Virus record (IMG/VR): IMGVR_UViG_3300036900_000100
Span: 1 to 25,031 of that record
Strand: one strand, 5' to 3'
Length of the DNA: 25,031 bases
Origin: a virus
Positions 6,892-18,134 of this stretch are shown piece by piece. Positions within the stretch are counted from its first letter, which is position 1; each line of letters starts with the position of its first letter. A program made the position numbers and the translations under genes. The notes under the pieces were generated by a model. That model ran no database searches, was not told the DNA's origin, and was given only the letters and a program-made list of their open reading frames with translations.

Positions 6892-8584
6892 GCTCCCGAA
6901 AGTCAAAAAGTATTGCCTGGATGTGCTGTCAGGCTCCGTTCCTACGGGCAGATTGGTATCTCTTGCAGTGGAGCGGCACCTGCGCGACTTGGAGCGCTCC
7001 AAGGCGACGGGATCAGTGATCCTGTGGGATCAGGATGACGGACTCAGGGCGATTGAGTTCTTTGAGCGCTTTCTGTGTTTGGCTGAGGGCGAACACAATG
7101 GCCAGCCGTTCAAGTTAGAGCCATGGCAACAGTTCATCATGGCATCGCTTTTCGGCTGGAAGTCGGGCGAATTTCGCAGATTTCGAACTGCATATGTCGA
7201 AATTGGCAAAGGTAACGGAAAATCGCCCATGGCCGCGGGAATCGGGCTCTATGGTCTCCTCGCCGACCGCGAAAGCGCCGCAGAAGTCTATTCCGCAGCT
7301 GTGGTCAAGGATCAGGCAAAGATTCTGTTCCGCGATGCGGAAAATATGCGGGATGCTTCCCCGCTTTTGAAGTCAAAGATCGAGAAGCACGTCAATAACC
7401 TGTTTGTCCCGTCGAGCAATTCATTTTTCCGACCTATTTCCTCGGAAAAGCGCGGATTGGATGGCAAACGGGTCCACATGGCTCTCATAGACGAGATACA
7501 TGAGCACCCATCAGCGTTAGTAGTGGACAAGATGAGGGCCGGAACCAAGGGCCGGCGGCAAGCTCTCATCTTCGAAATCACGAATTCTGGTTACGATCGC
7601 AACTCAGTTTGCTACCAGCATCACGATTATTCCGAGAAAATTCTCAGCGGAATCATCGAAAACGACTCTTGGTTTGCTTATGTCTGCCAATTGGACGTAT
7701 GCGAAGAGTGCGCCGATGCCGGAAAAGTCTCGCCAAGCTGCGAAAAGTGCGATCAGTGGACCGACGAAGCGGTTTGGCCGAAGGTAAACCCGAATTTAGG
7801 GGTGTCGATTCAGCCGAAGTACCTCCGCGAGCAGGTTGTTGAAGCTCAGGGGATGCCGTCGAAGGAAAACATCGTCAAGCGGCTTAATTTCTGCATGTGG
7901 ACCGAGCAGGCGGTCCGCTGGCTCCCAATGGACAAGTGGGACGCCTGCAAAGGCCAGGTTGACAAGGCAATGCTCGCTAAAGCGCCCTGTTTTGCTGGCT
8001 TGGACCTGGCGAATACCAGCGATTTAGCGGCGTTGGTGCTGGTTTTTCCCGATGGCGATGGGTACAAACTGCTTCCCTACTTCTGGGTACCGGAAGAAAC
8101 AGTCCGAGTTCGCAGCGAAAAAGAGCGCATTCCCTATGACATTTGGGTGCGCGAGGGCTTTATCAAAGCGACCGAAGGCAGCGTAATCGACTATGACGTC
8201 ATCCGCGCCGACATCAATGCAATAGCCGATGAGTACAGCATTCAGGAAATCGACCTTGATCCCTGGAACGCGACCCAAATCAGGGCTCAACTCGAGGGCG
8301 ACGGCTTCGAAGTAGTCGAAATTCGCCAAGGATTTCAAACTCTCTCGGCACCAACCAAAGAACTTGAACGTTTGATCCGCGCACAGTTGCTTGAGCATGG
8401 CGGTAATCCGGTTTTGCGCTGGAATGCTTCGAACGTGAGTGTCAGAACGGATCCGGCAGGGAATTTGAAGCCCGACAAGGAACGCAGCATAGAAAAAATT
8501 GACGGAATCACGGCTTTGATCAACGCTCTCGCGCGCGCCATGACTGAGCCCATATCTTCCGGCCGACTGATGGAAATCATTTGA
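6824..8584 (+). CDS. terL: terminase large subunit (ATPase/nuclease)
   Basis: A 586-residue protein, normal for HK97-type TerL. Walker A is GKGNGKS (128-134), Walker B MALIDE (219-224). The RNase H-like nuclease has GLDLANTSD (Asp394), IDLDPWN (Asp477/479) and EKIDGI (Asp560). It packages DNA into proheads and cuts it. Between the two domains sits DVCEECADAGKVSPSCEKC (293, 296, 306, 309), a zinc-knuckle-like insertion. The ATG at 6824 gives about 23 residues ahead of the conserved KLPKVKKYCLDVLSG; no later ATG fits before the conserved region. Its stop overlaps the TTG of the portal gene. Confidence 0.95.
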   Translation: MITHKTRWKISSAESLLEKSHSKLPKVKKYCLDVLSGSVPTGRLVSLAVERHLRDLERSKATGSVILWDQDDGLRAIEFFERFLCLAEGEHNGQPFKLEPWQQFIMASLFGWKSGEFRRFRTAYVEIGKGNGKSPMAAGIGLYGLLADRESAAEVYSAAVVKDQAKILFRDAENMRDASPLLKSKIEKHVNNLFVPSSNSFFRPISSEKRGLDGKRVHMALIDEIHEHPSALVVDKMRAGTKGRRQALIFEITNSGYDRNSVCYQHHDYSEKILSGIIENDSWFAYVCQLDVCEECADAGKVSPSCEKCDQWTDEAVWPKVNPNLGVSIQPKYLREQVVEAQGMPSKENIVKRLNFCMWTEQAVRWLPMDKWDACKGQVDKAMLAKAPCFAGLDLANTSDLAALVLVFPDGDGYKLLPYFWVPEETVRVRSEKERIPYDIWVREGFIKATEGSVIDYDVIRADINAIADEYSIQEIDLDPWNATQIRAQLEGDGFEVVEIRQGFQTLSAPTKELERLIRAQLLEHGGNPVLRWNASNVSVRTDPAGNLKPDKERSIEKIDGITALINALARAMTEPISSGRLMEII

Positions 8585-9837
8585 ACTTCATTCAGCGTTC
8601 AGTAGTCAGATTTCTCAAGGCGGTCGGCTTCCCTGTTTGGACCGGATCGACGACCGACATTCCGCCTGGGGGATGGGGCGCATGGGATTGGAATGGCGAT
8701 AAACTCCGCGGCCTGGAATTGAGTTCGGTTTTTGGCTGCTGTCGCGTACTTTGCGGAGCCATCGGCTCGCTTCCCCTGCATATTTTCCGGTTGGATGAGA
8801 ACGGAATCCCGGTCAAGTACGCCGACCATCCTCTTTACTCGATCGTCCACGATCGCCCGAACGTCTACCAGACATCGATGGAGTTTCGGGAGGCCTTGGT
8901 TCTCGGGTACTGCCTTTACGGGAACGGATTTGCGGAGATTGTTCGCTCCGGCAAGCGAATTACTTCACTCATCCCGATGCGCGCCGATCGAGTGCGCATA
9001 ATTCTTAATCAAGACGGACTCAGTTATCAGTACTACGGGAACAGCACCAACGGAACGGTAAAACCCGAGGTTTACCGGCCGGAACAAGTTTTACATTTCA
9101 AGAATTTCGCGCTCGACGGCATCAATGGAATCACGCCATTGCGTCCGGATCTGGTGAATCACGGATTAGTCGCGCAAACCTACGGCTTGAACTTCCTAAG
9201 AAATGGCGCCAAGCCCGCCGGCGCTCTGACTATGCCGAAGGGCACGAAGCTGGGTGATGTTGAAACCGTCAAAAACGATTGGAAAAAGCTCCATTCTGGA
9301 GCCGACAAAGCCGGAAGCGTAGCAGTTCTCTTTGACGGAATGACCTATCAAGACATTGGATTCAATCCTGATCAAGCACAGTTCATAGAAACGCTCGAAA
9401 TGATCAACAAGCAGGTTTCAGCCTGCTACGGCGTCCCGCCAACGATGCTAGGAATCACCGACCGCACGGCAACCTATGCGGCGTCAGAACAATTTGATTT
9501 GCAATTCGCGAAGCATGTTGTCAGACCTCTCGCGGAAAAGATGGAGCAGGCTTTCAACAAGGCTCTGCTCGCAGGCGAGGCCAACGTCTACTGCAAGATG
9601 GACATGGACGAGCTCCAGCGCGGCGACACCATGAGCCAGGCCGAGTGGTTCGCAAAAGTTTCGAGTAACGGCGGAATCACTCGTAACGAGTGGCGCAAAA
9701 AGATGAACCTGCCCGGCATGGAGGGCGGCGATTCGCTCACTGTGCAATCGCAAATGGTTGAACTGAAAGATTTGCCGAAATTGTCCGCGTCAGCAGCCGC
9801 CAATCCCGGCACCGCACCGGGAGACATCCGCAAATAG
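8581..9837 (+). CDS. portal protein (HK97 gp3 family)
   Basis: A 418-residue protein from TTG 8581, overlapping the TerL stop (TTGA). Family landmarks: GLELSSVFGCCRVLCGAIGSLP, DHPLYSIVHDRPNVYQTS, EFREALVLGYCLYGNGFAEI, QVLHFKNFALDG, NFLRNGAKPAGALTMP and INKQVSACYGVPPTMLGI. The portal dodecamer sits at one capsid vertex, docks the terminase and conducts DNA. Length is normal. The tail region (SAAANPGTAPG) is disordered. An ATG nine bases after its stop begins the protease, with an AGGAG site overlapping the portal stop. Confidence 0.95.
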   Translation: MNFIQRSVVRFLKAVGFPVWTGSTTDIPPGGWGAWDWNGDKLRGLELSSVFGCCRVLCGAIGSLPLHIFRLDENGIPVKYADHPLYSIVHDRPNVYQTSMEFREALVLGYCLYGNGFAEIVRSGKRITSLIPMRADRVRIILNQDGLSYQYYGNSTNGTVKPEVYRPEQVLHFKNFALDGINGITPLRPDLVNHGLVAQTYGLNFLRNGAKPAGALTMPKGTKLGDVETVKNDWKKLHSGADKAGSVAVLFDGMTYQDIGFNPDQAQFIETLEMINKQVSACYGVPPTMLGITDRTATYAASEQFDLQFAKHVVRPLAEKMEQAFNKALLAGEANVYCKMDMDELQRGDTMSQAEWFAKVSSNGGITRNEWRKKMNLPGMEGGDSLTVQSQMVELKDLPKLSASAAANPGTAPGDIRK

Positions 9838-9845
9838 GAGCACCC

Positions 9846-10463
9846 ATGAAATACAGAGATCTCGAAATCGAAATTAAAGACATTGGCGAATCAGACGGCA
9901 CCTTTGTCGGATTGGCGTCGGTTTACGGCAATGAGGATCTCGGCGGTGACATCGTGGAACCGGGCGCGTTCACCAAAACTCTCAGCGAAAAAGGCGGCGA
10001 AGTTCCGCTTTTGTGGCAGCACAACATGCGCGAGCCCATCGGAATCGGCAGACTCACCGACACGCAAAAGGGCTTGGAGATTCAGGGAAAGCTCATTCTC
10101 ACCGTCGGCAAGGCGCGCGAAGCCTATGATCTGATGAAAAACCGCGTAATCAAAGGGCTTTCCATTGGTTATGACACTGTACGAGATGAAGTGAAGGACA
10201 AGCGCCGGCTGCTCAAGGAATTGAAGCTCTGGGAAGTCTCAGTTGTTACGTTCCCTATGAACGAGCTTGCCAATGTGCAATCAGTGAAATCGGAAGATGT
10301 GCTCGCGCGAATCGAAGCGCTGGAGCGCGCAATAAAAGTTTTGGCACCCGAAGGTCTGCACGCCGGGAAACCACCTGCAGACACTAGCGCCGCCACGAAA
10401 GACGAGATCGCGCCGGAGGTTCTCCACGCGGCTTCGCGCATTACCGAGCTTCTTCGAAGCTGA
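9846..10463 (+). CDS. prohead protease, HK97 family (S78)
   Basis: A 205-residue protein with AGGAG just upstream. The family pattern is clear: GLASVYGNEDLGGDIVEPGAF, LLWQHN (His59), RVIKGLSIGYD (Ser106), LKLWEVSVVTFPMNELA. His59 and Ser106 are the likely catalytic pair; Glu130 in LWEVS lies at the place of a third residue. The enzyme removes the delta domain of the capsid protein during maturation. Its C-terminal third is variable and Ala/Pro-rich, as usual. It is followed by the capsid gene after 26 bases. Confidence 0.95.
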   Translation: MKYRDLEIEIKDIGESDGTFVGLASVYGNEDLGGDIVEPGAFTKTLSEKGGEVPLLWQHNMREPIGIGRLTDTQKGLEIQGKLILTVGKAREAYDLMKNRVIKGLSIGYDTVRDEVKDKRRLLKELKLWEVSVVTFPMNELANVQSVKSEDVLARIEALERAIKVLAPEGLHAGKPPADTSAATKDEIAPEVLHAASRITELLRS

Positions 10464-10489: not shown

Positions 10490-11929
10490 ATGAAAATCAA
10501 ATCTCGCCTACGCGCGGGAGAGCGGAAGTCTATCGCTCGTTTCCGGCAACATTTCGCAAATTCTCGGGAACTGGCCGCAATCTGCTATCGATTCGCCAGC
10601 ATGATTGCTCCAGTCGCAGTTTTGGCCATTCTTGGAATTGGAGCAGTACACGGCTATGCCGATTCCGGCCATGCTTCCACCATTGGCCATCATCTTCCAC
10701 TGATCGCCGCGACGCCGATCCTCGTGCCTGATTTGCAGAAGAAGTTGGACGGCATCGAAGGCGAACTCAAGAAGTTCATCGACAAGCACGCCGAAGAACT
10801 TAAAACCAATGGTACGGCCTCAGCCGAAACCAAGTCCGCACTCGACAAACTGGGCAATGACTGGAAGGACGCCTCTTTGCGCTTGCTCGCGCTCGAACAG
10901 AAGATGGACGCAAGCAAATTCGGCACTGGCACCGACAAAGAAGACAAGAGCATCGGCGAAATGGTCGTCGAGTCGGAAGGCTGGAAGAGTTTGCAGAATG
11001 GCGCGCCTCGCACTGGCAAAATGAAGGTCGGCACCTTCCACAAGACGGCCCTCATCAACGCCATTGGCCAAAATCAGCCTCTCGTACCGCCGAGCCGCGT
11101 CCCTGGCATCATCACGCCTGGACTTCGCCGGCTGACAATTCGGGACTTGATGCCGAGCATTCCAACCTCATCGAACTCAATCGAGTTTGTGAAGGAAACG
11201 GCGTTCACCAACAACGCGGCCCCGCAGTATTCTGCGGCCGCTTATGAAAACGTGGTCAAGGCAGAATCGGCTTTGACTTTCTCGCTCACTCCGATGCCCG
11301 TCTCGACCGTTGCGCACTGGATTCCGGTATCAAACCAGCTGCTCAGCGATGCGCCAGCCATTCAAGGCTACGTCAACACACGCTTGATGTACGGCTTGAA
11401 ATTGGCGGAAGAAGGCGAATTGCTGACCGGTTCCGGCATTCAGGGCCACCTGTCCGGACTCGTCACCAACGCGACCACGATGAGCACAACCTCAGCCGTC
11501 ACGGCAAGCGATACCTACATCGACACGCTTCGCCGTGCCGTCACTCAGGTTCAATTGTCCTATTTCGAGCCTGACGGGATCATCGTTCACCCGAGCGATT
11601 GGGAAACGATCGAACTCACCAAGGAAACCGGAACCGGAATCTCGAGCGGGATGTATGTCTATGCCAACCCGAGAGTCCAATCTGCTCCGCAGCTTTGGGG
11701 CTTGCCCGTAGTCGTAACTCAGGCCATGACGCAAGGGCAATTCCTCGTCGGCGCATTCCAGTTGGGCGCAACCATTTGGGATCGTGCGGATGCCACGGTC
11801 GAGATTAGCCGAGAACATTCCGACTACTTTGTTCGGAACATGGCGGCCATATTATGCGAGGAACGTTTGGCTCTCACAGTGTATCGTCCGTTAGCTTTTA
11901 TTTACGGGGGCTTCCCTTTTGGCAGTTAA
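10490..11929 (+). CDS. major capsid protein (HK97 gp5 fold) with N-terminal hydrophobic extension
   Basis: A 479-residue protein; CGGAGA lies at good distance before ATG 10490. Residues about 80-140 form the coiled-coil delta/scaffold domain (DLQKKLDGIEGELKKF). The shell part starts after about residue 170: GIITPGLRRLTIRDLMP, VKETAFTNNAAPQYSAA, STVAHWIPVSNQLLSDAP, GSGIQGHLSG, PDGIIVHPSDWE, LWGLPVVVTQAM and VEISREHSDYF. Capsid hexamers and pentamers assemble from it and the protease trims it. Residues 1-60 are odd: an Arg-rich stretch, then SMIAPVAVLAILGIGAVHGY (37-56), long enough for a membrane helix or signal peptide. An internal ATG at 10601 (Met38) exists but has no ribosome site. Confidence 0.95.
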   Translation: MKIKSRLRAGERKSIARFRQHFANSRELAAICYRFASMIAPVAVLAILGIGAVHGYADSGHASTIGHHLPLIAATPILVPDLQKKLDGIEGELKKFIDKHAEELKTNGTASAETKSALDKLGNDWKDASLRLLALEQKMDASKFGTGTDKEDKSIGEMVVESEGWKSLQNGAPRTGKMKVGTFHKTALINAIGQNQPLVPPSRVPGIITPGLRRLTIRDLMPSIPTSSNSIEFVKETAFTNNAAPQYSAAAYENVVKAESALTFSLTPMPVSTVAHWIPVSNQLLSDAPAIQGYVNTRLMYGLKLAEEGELLTGSGIQGHLSGLVTNATTMSTTSAVTASDTYIDTLRRAVTQVQLSYFEPDGIIVHPSDWETIELTKETGTGISSGMYVYANPRVQSAPQLWGLPVVVTQAMTQGQFLVGAFQLGATIWDRADATVEISREHSDYFVRNMAAILCEERLALTVYRPLAFIYGGFPFGS

Positions 11930-11948: not shown

Positions 11949-11993
11949 TTACGGCGGAATGTTCGATATAATAATCAAAGCATTCCGCCGTAA
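11949..11993 (+). promoter_or_regulatory. perfect 13-bp inverted repeat enclosing a promoter-like -10
   Basis: TTACGGCGGAATG (11949-11961) is exactly complementary to CATTCCGCCGTAA (11981-11993). TATAAT at 11967-11972 lies in the 19-base loop, and ATGACT at 11944-11949 is a 4-of-6 match to a -35 at 17 bases spacing. No T-run follows the second arm, so a terminator is less likely than an operator/promoter or an insertion-target palindrome. It would drive the downstream HNH gene. Confidence 0.5.
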
Positions 11994-12008
11994 CATTCAG
12001 ACTATTTC

Positions 12009-12548
12009 ATGCGAACGAAAGAGCAACGACACGCCGAATATCTTAAGTATCGAGATAAATGCATTGCTCGCGAGCAGCGCTACCGCGATGAAAATCCGGA
12101 AAAGATGCGCGCGCGAGATCGAGCACGATACACGCCGGAAAGAAAAGCTGCAATCATTGCTCGCACTGCAAAGCGGCGCGCAGAGAACCCAGGTTGTCGC
12201 AAGGAATCGGAACGTAGATATCGTGAGCGCCACAAAGAAGCAATCGCAGCCTACAACCGCAAATATTTCAAAGAACATCCGGATGTTGTTCGCTCAAGTC
12301 AGCATCGCCGCCGCGCACAGAAATACCTTGCGCCGTTCGATCACTTTAGAAGTCTTGAGATTTATGAGCGCGACAAATGGATGTGCGGATTGTGCGGAGA
12401 GCCTGTGAACAAAGAATTGCATCATCGCGATCCGATGTCGCCGTCACTTGATCACATCATCCCGCTCGCGAAAGGTGGGCACCATCTGCGCAGCAATTGC
12501 CAGCTTGCTCACTTGAGTTGCAACAAAAAGAAAAACTGCTTCGATTAG
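12009..12548 (+). CDS. free-standing HNH homing-type endonuclease
   Basis: A 179-residue, very basic protein. Residues 1-105 are Arg/Lys-rich helices made of loose repeats (RYRDENPEKMRARDRARY, RRYRERHKEAIAAYNRKY), probably DNA binding. The HNH core follows: CGLCGEPVN (C126, C129), SLDHIIPLAKGG (His149), LRSNCQLAHLSCNKKK (Asn163, C171, Asn172). No intron or intein is visible. Sitting with its own putative promoter between capsid and next structural gene, it looks like a selfish insertion (moron). No clear ribosome site precedes the ATG. Confidence 0.85.
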   Translation: MRTKEQRHAEYLKYRDKCIAREQRYRDENPEKMRARDRARYTPERKAAIIARTAKRRAENPGCRKESERRYRERHKEAIAAYNRKYFKEHPDVVRSSQHRRRAQKYLAPFDHFRSLEIYERDKWMCGLCGEPVNKELHHRDPMSPSLDHIIPLAKGGHHLRSNCQLAHLSCNKKKNCFD

Positions 12549-12562
12549 CCCTTCTCCGTTCA

Positions 12563-12787
12563 ATGAAATCGATTCGAGTCGTAATGCTGCGCAACTATGA
12601 AGGAATAGGCCGCGGCGAAACAAGAATTTTTGATTCGGAAACGGCGGAAACACTAATCGCCGCTGGGATCGGTGCCGAAGTAAGAGAAACAAAACCTGCA
12701 GGGCCTAAGGAATTCAAGCCTGCGGGGCCAAGCGAGATCAAGCAAGAGTTCAGCGGTAAAAAAAAAGTCAAGACGCCAAAATCCTGA
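12563..12787 (+). CDS. small post-capsid protein, possible N-terminus of a frameshift fusion
   Basis: A 74-residue protein from ATG 12563, starting MKSIRVVMLRNYEGIGRGE; longer in-frame starts (12497) overlap the HNH gene. Short proteins with this kind of beta start occur after capsid genes in HK97-like phages. The middle repeats KPAGPKEFKPAGPSEIK, a Pro/Lys linker. It ends SGKKKVKTPKS, the lysines coded by an A9 run (12758-12766). A -1 slip there enters the glycosyltransferase frame and avoids the stop at 12785. No ribosome site is obvious, perhaps because the HNH insertion displaced it. Confidence 0.6.
   Translation: MKSIRVVMLRNYEGIGRGETRIFDSETAETLIAAGIGAEVRETKPAGPKEFKPAGPSEIKQEFSGKKKVKTPKS
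12758..12766 (+). other. A9 slippery run, candidate -1 frameshift or transcriptional slippage site
   Basis: Nine adenines read as AAA AAA AAA in the small-protein frame. A -1 shift gives AGT CAA GAC GCC AAA ATC CTG ATT, the glycosyltransferase frame, which has no ATG, GTG or TTG until 12976, well inside the conserved domain. A single missing A in the assembly would look the same. Predicted fusion: 68 + 481 = 549 residues. Confidence 0.5.
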
Positions 12788-14211
12788 TTGCAGTTGAAAC
12801 CTGCCACGCGTACCGTGCAAGAGCAGATGCGCAGCGGGACACCTGGGTTAGAGACGTTCCTGGAGGAGTCGATGTCAGATTCTTTCTTGGGCGCGGCGAA
12901 GCTGAACGTGATGATGAAGTCATTCTTGATTGTGGCGACGGCTATAACGACCTTCCTGAAAAGACTCGCGCAATTATGCGCTGGTCGGTCGGTCAAGAAT
13001 ACGAAAATACCCTCAAGGTCGATGACGATACCTATTTACAGGCTAAGCGGGCAATTGAGGGCGGATTCGCATCGCATGATTACGTGGGGCGATTGCGAGG
13101 TCCGGTTGGTAAGTATCCCGCTCCTTACTGTTCAGGATTTTGCTACGGCTTGTCGAGAAGAGCAGCAGAAGTAATCGCGCAAGCAGAAATTGGTGAGCAC
13201 GCATACGAGGATCAGTTCGTTGCGCAGACGCTCTTGGATGCTGGGATTTATGCGCATCCTGATTACCGCTATCAGGTCATTACCTCAAGCCGGAACACTT
13301 GCTCAGGAACAGAAGGGCCGAGACAAGGCAACGATGTCATTGCGGCCTGTGAGTTCATCCCGCAGATTATGCGGAAAGTGCATCAAGATTGGTTGCACAA
13401 GCCTTCAGAAGTGACTTTGAATGTCCCGACCGGGCCACTGTCGCGAGTCTGCATTCTAGTTAAGACATTTTTGCGAGATGGCTATTTGCTGAGATGTTTG
13501 GCGGGCATTCAGCGGACGATGCCGGACGCCAAGATCATAATTGTTGACGATGGATATGAAAGCAGCCAAAAAATACATCTCTACAGTGAGCTACGCAGGC
13601 GCGGGCATGTGTGTGAGTGGTTGCCATTCGACTCTGGTTTTGGGGCCAAATCTAATCGCGGCGTCGAACTCTGCGACCGAGATTACGTGCTCATCGGATC
13701 AGACGACTTTGACTTTGGCGAGCCCTGCATACGTGGATATGTCGAAAAGCTGGTTGCTGTTTTGGACGCGCTCCCCGCGGTCGGCGTAGCTTCTGGGCGC
13801 GTGAACGGCAGGCCTTACGAAGCGACTCTCGACCTTGGGGAAGATTCAGTACGCGAGCATCAAGGCTATTCAGGCGAAGGCGAAGTAAATGGAATCCGAT
13901 ATTGCTATTGCGATCTCACTGTCAATTTTTCTCTTATTCGTCGGAGCGTGTTTGAGAAAGTGAAGTGGGATTCAGATGTCAAGATCGGTGGCGGCGAGCA
14001 TGGGGCGTTCTTTGTGGACGTCAAACGGGCGGGATGGAAAACGGTTTATCTCCCTGGAGTCAACATCAACGAAATGAAAGGTCCGCAGCAATGGGCGCAT
14101 CAGGCATACGGACGGTATCGCGGGCGCGCGGGAGCACCTGGCCGAATCTGCTTAAAGCGAAGGGGAATCTCAACTTATCACCTCATGGGAGGACAGGTTG
14201 AGCACTGCTAA
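12766..14211 (+). CDS. two-domain glycosyltransferase (GT31-like + GT2-like), start by recoding or non-canonical
   Basis: The frame is open from 12760. Its first conserved block (ILIAVETCHAYRARADAQRD, from 12781) lies before the first canonical start (ATG 12976), so a start at 12976 would truncate the domain. Domain 1 has TCxxR..A.R.TW, LPEKTR and KVDDDTYL (DDD at 13021-13029), then YEDQFVAQTLLDAGI, the layout of GT31 galactosyltransferases. Domain 2 (about 13430-14170) has VKTFLRDGYLLRCL, IIIVDDG, LIGSDDFDF, GGGEHGAFF, a GT2-type enzyme resembling beta-1,4-GalNAc transferases. Both GT-A metal sites look intact. It likely transfers two sugars in sequence, to a virion protein or host glycan (inference). 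Confidence 0.75.
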   Translation, partial: SQDAKILIAVETCHAYRARADAQRDTWVRDVPGGVDVRFFLGRGEAERDDEVILDCGDGYNDLPEKTRAIMRWSVGQEYENTLKVDDDTYLQAKRAIEGGFASHDYVGRLRGPVGKYPAPYCSGFCYGLSRRAAEVIAQAEIGEHAYEDQFVAQTLLDAGIYAHPDYRYQVITSSRNTCSGTEGPRQGNDVIAACEFIPQIMRKVHQDWLHKPSEVTLNVPTGPLSRVCILVKTFLRDGYLLRCLAGIQRTMPDAKIIIVDDGYESSQKIHLYSELRRRGHVCEWLPFDSGFGAKSNRGVELCDRDYVLIGSDDFDFGEPCIRGYVEKLVAVLDALPAVGVASGRVNGRPYEATLDLGEDSVREHQGYSGEGEVNGIRYCYCDLTVNFSLIRRSVFEKVKWDSDVKIGGGEHGAFFVDVKRAGWKTVYLPGVNINEMKGPQQWAHQAYGRYRGRAGAPGRICLKRRGISTYHLMGGQVEHC

Positions 14212-15399
14212 TTGAGAACCAGCGGAAACCTAGGACTCAAAAAATCGCACCTGTCGGCGGCGGTCGTTAATGCTGACGTCAGCGCGGCGAACGATTGGAA
14301 TCTCGAACAGATCGATGGCGCCGTCACAGATCTGCAGGCGCAATTAGCGGGCGCATCTGAAGGCGGAATCATCGGTCCGGAGGGTCCGGAGGGGCCTCAA
14401 GGACCCCAAGGCGAGCAAGGACCCGAAGGTCCGCAGGGGGCACAGGGATTACAAGGGCCAAAGGGCGACACTGGCGCAACCGGTCCCGCGGGAGACAAGG
14501 GCGATACTGGCGACGTAGGCCCACAAGGAGCTCCCGGGGCCACTGGCTCACAGGGTTTGCAAGGACCTCAGGGAGCGCAAGGCATTCAAGGACCGCCAGG
14601 GCCGCAAGGTGATGCTGGGCCTACCGGAGCGACAGGCGCAACGGGGGCAAGTGGGGCAACCGGTGCTCAAGGGATTCAAGGCCAAATTGGGCCTCAGGGT
14701 CCGAAAGGGGACACCGGGGATATGGGACCTCAGGGTGCTACAGGTGCAACCGGACCGCAGGGACCCTCAGGAAGTGACGCCGGTATTCCAAGTGGCTTGA
14801 TCGCGATGTGGGCGGGCTTGTTGGTGAATATCCCCTCAGGCTGGCATCTTTGCGACGGGCAATTGGGAACGCCTGATCTTCGCTCGAAGTTCATCAAGGG
14901 CGCGGCGGCCGGCATCGATCCTGGGACGCCAGGCGGCGGGACTTATACGCCTGCAGGAACCGTCTCCGCACCAAGTTTTACCGGAACGCAAGCAACGCTT
15001 ACAGGTTCGGTTTCTGCTCCTACATTCACCGGCAGTCAAGGAACCACGTCAGCGGTAAGCGCCGGAACGCCGTCCGGAACGAACAGCGCGCCGACCTTTA
15101 CCGGAAATGCAGTTGTCGCGGCTTCGACCAATAGCGGCACAAAGCTAGTCACCGGCAACACGAGCACAGGCGTTTCGCCGGTCACCACGGCAACCGGAAC
15201 AGTATCGGCGCCGACCTTCACAGGCTCGGCGATGGGCACGCACACGCACACATTGACGCCAGCAGGGACAAATTCCGCTCCAACGTTGACTATGAACGCT
15301 TATACGCCTGCAGGAACGATTGGGACGCCGACATTCACCGGAACACAGGCCAGTCCAGAGCCGAGCTATTACGCTTTGGCGTTCATTATGAAGCTATGA
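14212..15399 (+). CDS. collagen-like fibre protein with phage tail-collar domain
   Basis: A 395-residue protein from TTG 14212, immediately after the TAA of the glycosyltransferase and in the same frame; GGGAGGA (14188-14194) lies 17 bases upstream, a long spacing. Residues 1-54 are a typical fibre N-terminus ([18 protein letters not shown]). Residues 55-186 are 44 uninterrupted Gly-X-Y triplets, many GAT, GDT and GPQ, predicting a collagen triple helix. Next comes [36 protein letters not shown] (tail-collar domain), then Thr/Ser-rich repeats (SAPTFTG) and the collar end [13 protein letters not shown] trimeric receptor-binding or adhesive fibre. Thr-rich triplets are plausible sugar acceptors. 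Confidence 0.9.
14374..14769 (+). repeat. collagen triplet repeat region (44 Gly-X-Y)
   Basis: Continuous 9-base periodicity GGN-NNN-NNN encoding 44 triplets without interruption. Such repeats expand and contract by recombination, so length may vary among relatives. Confidence 0.9.
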
Positions 15400-16238
15400 A
15401 ATACCTCGTCACTGGCGCAGCAGGATTCATCGGGTCGCATCTGACCGATGCTCTTATCGCCAAAGGGCAGGACGTTATAGCCGTCGATAACCTTCTCTCT
15501 GGTTATCACGATCAAGTAAACCCAGAAGCCAAGTTCTATGAACTGGAAATCACGCGCTATGAAAAGCTGGTCGAGCTCATGCATGAAGAGAATCCGGCTG
15601 GCATATTTCATTGCGCGGCAATCGCGCGCACGCCTTGGTGTATGGATGAGCCTTTACTTGCTTCACTTACGAATGCGCATGGTACGGCGTGCGTTTTAGA
15701 GGCGGCAAGACAGGCCAAAGTTAAGCGAGTGGTGCTCTGTAGTTCCAACGTAGTCTATGCAGCGCACACCCCTTACCGTGCAACGAAGGAAATGCTCGAG
15801 CTCTGGGGGCGTTGCTACAAGGAAAGTTTTGGTCTGAGCGTCATTGCTCTCAGGTTCTCAAACGTTTACGGGCCACGGCAGTCCGAGGAAGGGCCTTCGC
15901 CGAACGTCTTTGCAGCCCTCCGAAAGTCGAAGAAAGAAAAAGGCCATCTTGAAATTACCGGCGACGGCGAACAGTCGCGGGACTTTACGCACGTCTTCGA
16001 CATCGTTCGCGGCTTAATCGCGGCAATGAACTCGGAAGTCTGCGGAGTGGTAGACCTCTGCACCGGGAAGAATTGGACCCTGAACCAAGTTGCGGGCATG
16101 TTCGGCGGGCCAGTTGAGTACCTTCCCGAGAGGCCCGGGGACGTGAAACATATTCTCCAAGATCCTCGAGATGCCGAAAAGTTGCTCGGCTGGCGGTACA
16201 AGATTGAATTGCCCAATGGCATCAAGGATTGCATATAG
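15396..16238 (+). CDS. NAD-dependent NDP-sugar epimerase (extended SDR, GalE-like)
   Basis: A 280-residue protein; ATGA overlap with the fibre gene. Rossmann motif GAAGFIG (7-13), Asp31 after the second strand for NAD ribose, CSSNVVY (Ser116/117), YRATK (Tyr127, Lys131) and RFSNVYGPRQ, with the FTHVFDIVRG segment typical of the family. The catalytic Tyr-Lys pair is intact. Known relatives interconvert UDP-glucose/galactose or their N-acetyl forms, so it probably supplies the donor for adjacent glycosyltransferases. The loop between VVY and YRATK is shorter than in typical GalE and the protein is about 50 residues short; exact substrate cannot be told. Confidence 0.9.
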   Translation: MKYLVTGAAGFIGSHLTDALIAKGQDVIAVDNLLSGYHDQVNPEAKFYELEITRYEKLVELMHEENPAGIFHCAAIARTPWCMDEPLLASLTNAHGTACVLEAARQAKVKRVVLCSSNVVYAAHTPYRATKEMLELWGRCYKESFGLSVIALRFSNVYGPRQSEEGPSPNVFAALRKSKKEKGHLEITGDGEQSRDFTHVFDIVRGLIAAMNSEVCGVVDLCTGKNWTLNQVAGMFGGPVEYLPERPGDVKHILQDPRDAEKLLGWRYKIELPNGIKDCI

Positions 16239-16247
16239 CCGGGATCA

Positions 16248-16934
16248 GTGATCCCCGCTCGCCTGACGCATCGCCAGATGACAACCCTTATCGCGGTATC
16301 AACCTGTGAGCGGGACGCTCAGAACGGCTTTAACGCGGCAATGCGGCAAACCTGGATTCGAGAGATGCCGCAAGTTGAAGGCTTCGAATATCGGCTCTTT
16401 TATGGCAAAGGCGATCGGGCGTTACTTCCGGACGAGGTTCGGCTCGATGTTCCTGACGACTATCACGGGCTACCCTTCAAAACTCGCGAATCGCTGCGGT
16501 GGGCGCTTGAGCATAACTTCGATTTCGTTTTCCGGGCTTTTTCTGACACTTGCATCAATCCTCATCGGCTGCGGACGTCAGGATTTGCGCGGCATCACTA
16601 TTTCGGCTGCTTTCCTGGGGGCTACGTTGCTGAACCGGACGCAAAAGGCCATTATGCCTATGCTTCAGGCGGTCCGGGTTACTTCACCGATCGGCTTGCT
16701 TCGCGGGAAATAGTCAACGCCGAACCAGACCGCAAAATCTATGACGCATATTGGGCGGAGGATCTCTGGGTAGGAGACGTGTTAGGCAAAGCCGGAATTC
16801 GCGGAATGGACGATAAACAATTTTGGTTCAAGTGGGCAGGCATGGCGACCGGCGCAACTACAGTCCACCTGTCGCGCGGGACTGACAATTACGACCCGAG
16901 ATGGATGTTTGAGTGTTATGAGCAGATGAAATGA
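16248..16934 (+). CDS. GT31-like glycosyltransferase, paralogue of the first domain upstream
   Basis: 228 residues from GTG 16248 (weak GGGA upstream), or 218 from ATG 16278, which matches the conserved start TTLIAVSTCERDA better; neither has a strong ribosome site. It aligns along its length with domain 1 of the large glycosyltransferase: LIAVxTC, MRQTWIREMP, LFYGKGD, DEVRLD, LPFKTRESLRW, YASGGPGYF, WAEDLWVGDVLGKAGI. At the DxD position it has RAFSDTCI instead of KVDDDTYL, so metal binding is altered and activity or donor may differ. Its stop overlaps the connector gene (ATGA), so it is cotranscribed with structural genes. Confidence 0.8.
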   Translation: MIPARLTHRQMTTLIAVSTCERDAQNGFNAAMRQTWIREMPQVEGFEYRLFYGKGDRALLPDEVRLDVPDDYHGLPFKTRESLRWALEHNFDFVFRAFSDTCINPHRLRTSGFARHHYFGCFPGGYVAEPDAKGHYAYASGGPGYFTDRLASREIVNAEPDRKIYDAYWAEDLWVGDVLGKAGIRGMDDKQFWFKWAGMATGATTVHLSRGTDNYDPRWMFECYEQMK

Positions 16935-17713
16935 GCTATTCCTCTTTCTCTTATCCATATCCTTGGCCTCACGAACCTTTGAAGATGTCGATCGTGAAGC
17001 GGTCGGCTGCGGAAGCTGAGCCGATATCGCTCGACTCGGCGAAAGCATTTCTTCAGGTGACTCACAGCCTTGACGACGATCTGATTAACAGCCTGATAAA
17101 AGCGGCAAGAGAGTATGCGGAGCTTAAAACTGGCAAAAGCCTAACCAAAAAAGAATACACGCTTGCCCTCAACCGCTTCCCTAATCTCTATTGCGACGGA
17201 ACGACCGCAATTGAGTTGTGGCCGCCGCCGCTCACCGAATGCAATGAAATCCGATATATCGGGACGGATGGAATCGACACGTCAATCAGTTCAGGGCTTG
17301 CATTCCAAGTTGACTTTGCCAGCGAGCCGGGGAGAGTGGCACCTTTGGCCGGTCAGTGCTGGCCTGCAACCCTTTGGGGAGCACTGAACGCCGTCCGGGT
17401 ACTTTTCACGGCAGGCTATGAAACCCGTTCGACTGAATCTCTTGACAATGACGCGGTAGTCGAGGAGCCGGAATCGGAAGAAGTGATCATGCCGTCGATG
17501 AACTCCCAAGTAACGCAATGGGACATCGATCGCACAATACCAAGCGATTTGCTCACGGCAATTAAGCAAGTTGTTTTGCACTGGTACAGAAACCGCGATG
17601 TCGTAATCGCCATGCCTGGCGCTGGCGGCGTCTATGCGCCTCTGCCCGTCCACTTGGACGAAATCATTTCCCAGCATCGCGTAATGAATTTAGCAATGAC
17701 TTTTCCGCAGTAA
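16931..17713 (+). CDS. head-tail connector (HK97 gp6-like)
   Basis: A 260-residue protein; ATGA overlap with the previous gene. The recognisable part is EPISLDSAKAFLQVTHSLDDDLINSLIKAAREYAELKTGKSL, then a beta-rich segment with PNLYCDGTTAIELWPPPLTECNEI and YGTDG-like IGTDG, VRVLFTAGY, and the C-terminal helix LLTAIKQVVLHWYRNRD, the pattern of gp6-like/phiE125 gp8 connectors. It forms the ring under the portal. It is somewhat longer than the family because of the acidic insertion EEPESEEV. Twenty-two bases separate it from the next gene. Confidence 0.85.
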   Translation: MSYSSFSYPYPWPHEPLKMSIVKRSAAEAEPISLDSAKAFLQVTHSLDDDLINSLIKAAREYAELKTGKSLTKKEYTLALNRFPNLYCDGTTAIELWPPPLTECNEIRYIGTDGIDTSISSGLAFQVDFASEPGRVAPLAGQCWPATLWGALNAVRVLFTAGYETRSTESLDNDAVVEEPESEEVIMPSMNSQVTQWDIDRTIPSDLLTAIKQVVLHWYRNRDVVIAMPGAGGVYAPLPVHLDEIISQHRVMNLAMTFPQ

Positions 17714-17735: not shown

Positions 17736-18134
17736 ATGGCTTTTACCCACACAACCGGAGTTACCTACACGACTGACGCGGGGAGGCTGGCAAGCACGAC
17801 CACAGTCAAATCCGCCGATACGCAACTCGGGATCACCGATACCATTGGCGCAAACGGGGGCGTCACGCATTTCATCATTGGCGTAGACGTGAGCGAAATC
17901 GAATCAGTCTGCTTGTACTCGGACAAGGATATCACCGTGAACGTGAACGTGGACAACAATTCCGTCAAGCAGATCACATTGACCGCCGGCGTAATGGTCA
18001 CATGGAACACCGACCTTACTTCCTCAAATCCTCTCGGCACAACCGATTGGACCGGCTGCTATGTCCACAACGACACCACAGCAGTTGCGACCGTGAAGTT
18101 TCAATTCCTCGTCAATCAACCCTCCGGCTCATAA
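17736..18134 (+). CDS. probable abundant structural protein (decoration- or fibre-like), unknown family
   Basis: A 132-residue, Thr/Val-rich protein with almost continuous predicted beta strands (THFIIGVDVSEIESVCLYSD, ITVNVNVDNNSVKQITLT). An ideal AAAGGAG ribosome site precedes it and a UUCG hairpin follows, the same arrangement as the tail tube gene, suggesting high expression. It lies between connector and head-closure genes, where HK97 has no gene. I infer a virion decoration or minor structural protein. Not recognised as a known family. Confidence 0.7.
   Translation: MAFTHTTGVTYTTDAGRLASTTTVKSADTQLGITDTIGANGGVTHFIIGVDVSEIESVCLYSDKDITVNVNVDNNSVKQITLTAGVMVTWNTDLTSSNPLGTTDWTGCYVHNDTTAVATVKFQFLVNQPSGS

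Follow-up and report, generated by a model that had tools for sequence, protein, structure and literature searches.

In mycobacteriophages, capsid and tail-tube proteins are glycosylated by phage-encoded glycosyltransferases (GTs) (PMC12363180, PMC11256854), and for Che8, Corndog and Myrna both papers cite Freeman et al. 2023 on virion glycosylation. In C. difficile, the GT SgtA glycosylates threonines (Thr) of the neighbouring collagen-like protein BclA3 (PMC7157674). This work addresses a cassette carried by the 25,031-base IMG/VR virus record IMGVR_UViG_3300036900_000100 (the whole of this stretch is called the window hereafter), a genome fragment of an uncultivated tailed phage. The cassette encodes a two-domain GT31-GT2 enzyme, a collagen-like fibre, a nucleoside diphosphate (NDP)-sugar epimerase and a second GT31-like protein belonging to a subfamily with an F[PS]DT motif. 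Judged from these genes, there is about an even chance that the enzymes put sugar on one of this phage's own virion proteins, which would most likely be the fibre encoded within the cassette. The presence of the same enzyme pair beside fibre genes in at least seven other phages suggests that these phages may decorate their own particles with sugars. Phage virion glycosylation and the glycosylation of spore collagen by a GT encoded next to it are already known; new are the GT31-GT2/F[PS]DT pair itself, the fact that several uncultivated phages carry it linked to fibre genes and the fact that, at the thresholds used, 50,697 named phage records do not contain it.

As in mycobacteriophages, phage-encoded GTs are proposed here, and were shown there, to decorate virion proteins. 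However, the mycobacteriophage glycan has been demonstrated on capsid and tail-tube proteins, whereas in the window a GT31 and a GT31-GT2 enzyme are coupled to a fibre gene and the glycan is a prediction. Furthermore, the GT genes of the F1 phage Maravista lie near the 3' end of the genome, whereas those of the window lie beside the fibre gene; both the window and its relatives carry GT genes within or close to the genes for virion structure. The cassette resembles the SgtA-BclA3 system in that a GT gene adjoins a collagen-like gene with GXT triplets, i.e. GXY triplets with Thr in the Y position (11 of 46 in the window and 10 of 23 in the related contig L061). BclA3 is, however, a spore protein and SgtA a single initiating O-linked N-acetylglucosamine transferase, whereas the phage encodes a two-domain enzyme, a second GT31 and an epimerase. 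The protein gp12 of SPP1 is also collagen-like, and its gene lies next to that of the capsid in the head module, but it has 64 amino acids (aa) and the passage that describes it mentions no GT neighbour (PMC6316719), whereas the window fibre has 395 aa and a collar-like, Thr-rich C-terminus. Unlike the Gtr-type serotype conversion systems (GtrA/GtrB/Gtr), the window enzymes have no membrane-spanning segment (no 19-residue hydropathy window above 1.34, the maxima being 1.34, 1.31 and 0.3 for the fusion, the epimerase and the second GT31), and no membrane-spanning flippase or polyprenol GT was found among the Pfam-scanned window genes. TarP from S. aureus prophages is, like the fusion, a phage-borne GT with a GT2-like fold, as far as the poor model of the fusion indicates. 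Nevertheless, TarP is a single-protein teichoic-acid enzyme with neither a fibre neighbour nor a second GT31, both of which are present in the window. In eukaryotic chondroitin synthases, a GT31 domain is joined to a second GT-A domain; the fusion would resemble CHSY3-CHPF and K4CP in its two predicted GT-A domains per polypeptide.

Scanning viral contigs with single sequences gave no match, and relatives of the enzymes were recovered by alignment-based scans (loci are designated L0xx). The GT31-GT2 enzyme and the F[PS]DT GT31 occur together in seven other viral contigs (L006, L007, L008, L009, L010, which is the same contig as L005, L044 and L061). In a maximum-likelihood tree of 47 GT31 domains, the GT31 domain of the window fusion forms a clade with the fusions from L006-L010 and L044 (support 100/94). 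The second GT31 falls with the FPDT enzymes that these contigs encode, in a nine-member set that includes L004 and L022 (97/84). L061, which was found later and compared by BLAST outside the tree, brings the pairs to eight, counting the window; its enzymes share 45% and 31% identity with the fusion and the second GT31 of the window, respectively. In all seven relatives, the pair, which is co-inherited among these phages, is part of a four-gene set composed of the GT31-GT2 enzyme, a small GT31, a CmcI-type methyltransferase and the FPDT GT31. The methyltransferase of L007 matches PF13578 and PF04989 (rhamnosyl O-methyltransferase/CmcI), and copies in the other relatives were detected by tblastn. 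The window is devoid of the small GT31 and the methyltransferase and carries the collagen fibre and the epimerase instead.

The sets of all seven relatives lie 3' of fibre-like genes containing 16-26% serine (Ser) plus Thr, at the end of the tail module and not between capsid and connector genes; in L007 the set precedes a glucosaminidase gene. In L061, a collagen-like gene is found just upstream of the cassette, with one gene between. F[PS]DT-type GT31 genes are also found in L004, L022 and L057, inside larger sugar islands and 3' of a fibre-like gene. Four phage contigs (L018, L022, L055 and L057) carry long sugar-biosynthesis islands with SDR-like epimerases/dehydratases, aminotransferase-like genes and several GTs. 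No insertion of the capsid/connector type was seen upstream in four relatives (L033-L036) whose open reading frame (ORF) calls were read by eye, and in L047 the connector gene is directly 3' of the capsid gene. The capsid/connector site thus looks peculiar to the window phage and is not supported as a defining trait of the cassette; the recurrent feature is the association with a fibre gene.

In the named phage records, neither the second GT31 nor the L010 fusion or FPDT enzyme found a match, and the window fusion found a weak GT2 match in Salinibacter phages only. One scan of bacterial genomes returned nothing, and a second returned large chromosomal proteins only, with no prophages of the window's kind. 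The bacterial GT31-like domains (L037-L043) belong to chromosomal proteins of about 1,400 aa in Pseudomonadota, some of which adjoin sulfotransferase-like or GT-like genes. The reverse order, GT2 then GT31 in a single frame, is found in two other phage contigs (L011 9983-11593 and L045 4941-6500). No paper on phage GT31 cassettes was found in a literature search.

The window genes were identified by sequence reading and hidden Markov model (HMM) scans with Pfam, phrog and NCBIfam/TIGR profiles (Table 1). Both halves of the fusion exceed their Pfam cut-offs, with 37.3 bits against 23 for PF01762 and 30.7 bits against 23.3 for PF00535. The GT31 part retains a DxD-type DDD motif (KVDDDTYL) and the ED motif, and the GT2 part carries VDDG and SDDFD motifs, the latter invariant across eight aligned sequences. 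In profile searches, the GT2 half matches B4GALNT1 (3.8e-12) and chondroitin synthase (3.3e-7) and the GT31 half matches B3GNT2 (1.7e-4); therefore, the fusion could attach two sugars one after the other. Its structure model is poor (mean predicted local distance difference test score, pLDDT, 57.8; predicted template modelling score, pTM, 0.44), so that fold matches serve as hints only; the best structural neighbours of this model are the chondroitin synthases CHSY3-CHPF and bacterial K4CP, with template modelling (TM) scores of 0.2-0.3 and identities of 11-13%. The second GT31-like protein is better modelled (pLDDT 80.5, pTM 0.85) and adopts a GT-A fold of the beta-1,3-glycosyltransferase type, with query-normalised TM-scores of 0.6-0.7 to B3GNT2, B3GalT5, B3GalT6 and C1GalT1. 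It retains the ED motif and a C-terminal HLS but has AFSDT where GT31 enzymes carry DDD, and is therefore named GT31-like only. As its phage relatives share CF[PS]D (motif table and alignment) and F[PS]D prevails in its clade, FSD is a subfamily trait and not a lesion. The altered metal motif would leave a non-catalytic partner role possible for this protein.

The C-terminal part of the fibre contains 20% Thr and 10% Ser. The epimerase matches the UDP-glucose 4-epimerase of PDB entry 4zrm (1e-39), and GAAGFIG (GxxGxxG type) and YRATK (YxxxK type) motifs can be read in its translation. It scores below the NCBIfam cut-offs of the matches listed and is assigned at the level of the family.

Table 1. 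Annotated features of the window with their supporting matches
Feature	Position	Strand	Evidence or remark
HK97 portal	8581-9837		TIGR01537 7.5e-65
S78 protease	9846-10463
HK97 capsid	10490-11929		41-44% identity with HK97-group capsids
Strong, near-perfect long hairpin	11949-11994	+	about 20 nucleotides past the capsid stop; -31.1 kcal/mol, z -8.95; TATAAT in loop
HNH homing-type endonuclease	12009-12548	+	PF01844 5e-10; phrog_338 5.8e-21
75-aa small head-module protein	12563-12787	+	phrog_2616 8.9e-7; weak phrog_748 connector match
A9 homopolymer, candidate -1 slippage site	12758-12766	+	links the 75-aa frame (zero frame) to the GT31-GT2 frame
Two-domain glycosyltransferase, GT31-like N-terminal and GT2-like C-terminal	12778-14211	+	Pfam profiles, motifs, alignments
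Collagen-like fibre, tail-collar-like segment, Thr-rich repeat C-terminus	14212-15399	+	PF01391 7.8e-20; phrog_6320 tail fibre 1.7e-40; collar motif matches
NDP-sugar epimerase/dehydratase, extended SDR type, GalE-like	15396-16238	+	PF01370 2.5e-48; phrog_540 1.7e-66
Second GT31-like protein, F[PS]DT subfamily	16278-16934	+	PF01762 9.8e-6, 25.9 bits (cut-off 23)
gp6-like head-tail connector	16931-17713	+	PF05135 1.8e-13; phrog_442; ATGA-coupled to upstream GT31 gene

The window corresponds to the head-to-tail module of an HK97-type phage, with portal, protease, capsid, connector and tail genes and a TIGR02218 baseplate-hub protein. As first annotated, about 5 kb separates the capsid and connector genes (5.0 kb from the capsid stop at 11929 to the connector start at 16931), and the HMM scans confirmed the gene list. 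The interval contains, in order, the hairpin, the HNH gene, the 75-aa head gene, the GT31-GT2 enzyme, the collagen fibre, the epimerase and the second GT31-like gene. The cassette genes are sense-oriented within the late structural operon and most of their junctions overlap or abut. Indeed, the TAA of the fusion (ending at 14211) abuts the TTG start of the fibre gene (14212), and ATGA overlaps are found at the fibre/epimerase and second GT31/connector junctions, the latter bearing out the proposed coupling to the connector gene. The epimerase and the second GT31 do not fit the proposed linkage by overlaps or abutting codons: 9 bases separate them if the latter starts at GTG 16248, and 39 if it starts at ATG 16278.

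Although this coupling is of the type expected for co-expressed genes, the single structural transcript initially proposed is not assured because of the strong hairpin 3' of the capsid gene. This hairpin, for which an Rfam search matched no family, possibly acts as an attenuator, an RNA-stability element or a cassette promoter, and it may uncouple cassette expression from capsid expression. The HNH gene is probably an independent mobile gene. The ORF of the 75-aa gene, as called, opens further 5', at TTG 12497. The capsid ORF has an extension of about 78 aa (10490-10723) ahead of its HK97 gp5-like part, with GGAG preceding ATG 10490; this extension holds the 19-residue hydrophobic segment FASMIAPVAVLAILGIGAV (mean hydropathy 2.33), which is odd in a major capsid protein. 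A 132-aa Thr/Ser-rich protein of a family without assignment is encoded at 17736-18134 and has a distant match (24%) at L009 904-1281.

The start of the fusion is unusual. Its frame opens at 12760, directly past an in-frame TAA (12757-12759), and contains no ATG, GTG or TTG before 12976, whereas homology begins at 12778 (KILIAVETC), where the aligned start codon is ATG or GTG in the relatives and GCC in the window. The 75-aa frame crosses the A9 homopolymer as GGT AAA AAA AAA GTC, and a -1 slip would enter the GT frame. This homopolymer is the only A/T run of at least 8 in the window, with 0.63 runs of at least 9 expected; no frameshift-stimulating RNA structure is evident 3' of it (z -0.01). 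As the sequence reads, the fusion must be translated either from a non-AUG codon (ATC 12781, CTG 12784 or ATT 12787) or via -1 slippage on A9, and it may need this slippage. A sequence-assembly error within the homopolymer is another possible cause of the missing start.

Several observations weigh against the proposal that virion proteins are glycosylated. Named tail-fibre or virion-structure matches were obtained only for the fibre genes of L010, L009 and L004; the remaining fibre calls in relatives rely on position and Ser/Thr content. The epimerase is not supported as a constant component for donor synthesis: no significant match to it emerged from the closest contigs, and none of the seven relatives shares it. 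The occurrence of the enzymes elsewhere in the genome and without the fibre, which the first-pass annotation would count against itself, is borne out in half: most relatives lack a collagen fibre, but another fibre-like gene adjoins the enzymes. Six of the seven pair-bearing relatives show no collagen-like gene in the stretches read, so that a collagen domain is not supported as the obligate acceptor; collagen accompanies the pair in two of eight pair-bearing contigs (the window included) and was seen at none of the other loci scanned, a co-occurrence that is suggestive but not statistically significant. The number of related contigs is small and some are close relatives of one another; adjacency counts are therefore not independent. 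Thr-rich collar fibres also exist without GT genes, and glycosylation is here predicted from gene content. Moreover, a recombinant prophage collagen produced in E. coli was not glycosylated (PMC3368898). Finally, lone GT31 genes of a different branch lie between prohead protease and capsid genes in L047 (9995-10615) and L053 (9986-10609); other GT31 genes lie near terminase genes in L050 (same branch as L047 and L053) and upstream of terminase in L045 and L016. All five belong to virion gene modules, which speaks for a virion role, but they do not involve fibres; a single GT31 in a head module needs none. Taken as a whole, the first-pass interpretation is partly supported: the identity of the GTs is borne out by profile and fold searches, although FSD in place of DDD qualifies the GT31 assignment of the second gene, and the fibre link extends to seven related contigs.

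It is also conceivable, though rather unlikely, that the enzymes modify host surface glycans, as prophage TarP does on wall teichoic acid, with receptor masking or superinfection exclusion as the outcome and their location being a chance insertion site for late morons. The structural similarity of the GT2 half to TarP (in a low-confidence model), the neighbourhood of the bacterial GT31 relatives described above and the GT31 genes held by some large phages in big sugar islands are all consistent with such a role; cytosolic GTs can act on precursors of lipopolysaccharide core or capsule. However, no membrane protein, flippase or polyprenol GT is found beside the pair, and the seven closest contigs keep the set beside late-operon fibre-like genes, a place whose time of expression would be too late for masking the host under infection. 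A still less probable acceptor is the capsid or another head protein, the collagen protein then being a head-decorating fibre like gp12 of SPP1, a collagen-like capsid-surface protein whose gene adjoins the capsid gene (PMC6316719). The position of the cassette between capsid and connector, the GT31 genes that L047 and L053 carry between protease and capsid and the glycosylation of mycobacteriophage capsids (PMC12363180) point in that direction, whereas the orthologous pair adjoins tail-fibre-like genes in seven other contigs and the window fibre matches tail-collar and tail-fibre profiles. That the cassette is decayed or recently acquired cargo without a working product is very unlikely. The fusion does lack a canonical start before its homology begins and FSD does replace DDD in the second GT31; yet both frames are fully open (1.4 and 0.65 kb) with 50-53% and 35-42% identity to relatives, F[PS]D is normal in the clade concerned, and the A9 run gives a route into the fusion frame.

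If the enzymes do glycosylate a virion protein, the cassette would make a short glycan and attach it to that protein, most likely the cassette fibre. The epimerase would supply or alter a nucleotide-sugar donor, and within the fusion the GT31 domain and the GT2 domain would each add a different sugar, one after the other. The FSD-type GT31 may be a third transferase whose metal binding is altered, or else a partner without catalytic activity. The first sugar would go on threonines, either of the GXT triplets or of the Thr-rich C-terminus, and in the relatives the glycan would receive a cap from the CmcI-like O-methyltransferase. The phage would gain a more stable fibre, a change in receptor binding or shielding. 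A more far-reaching proposal, distinctly improbable as a whole, is that of an undescribed tailed-phage system in which the GT31-GT2 enzyme and its F[PS]DT partner (which may serve as a non-catalytic subunit, the part that CHPF perhaps plays for CHSY) would assemble a sugar chain on phage fibres, either an oligosaccharide or a short polymer of repeats, which most members would cap by O-methylation. In the window phage, a head-module protein extended by -1 slippage would yield the enzyme, which would thereby be tied to assembling virions.

Virion glycosylation is so far known from a few mycobacteriophages, where it alters antibody recognition. If the proposal made here is true, it would reach receptor-binding fibres as well as an enzyme family known chiefly for the synthesis of animal O-glycans and glycosaminoglycans. 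The set is small enough for reconstitution in vitro, which makes the question of the acceptor directly testable.

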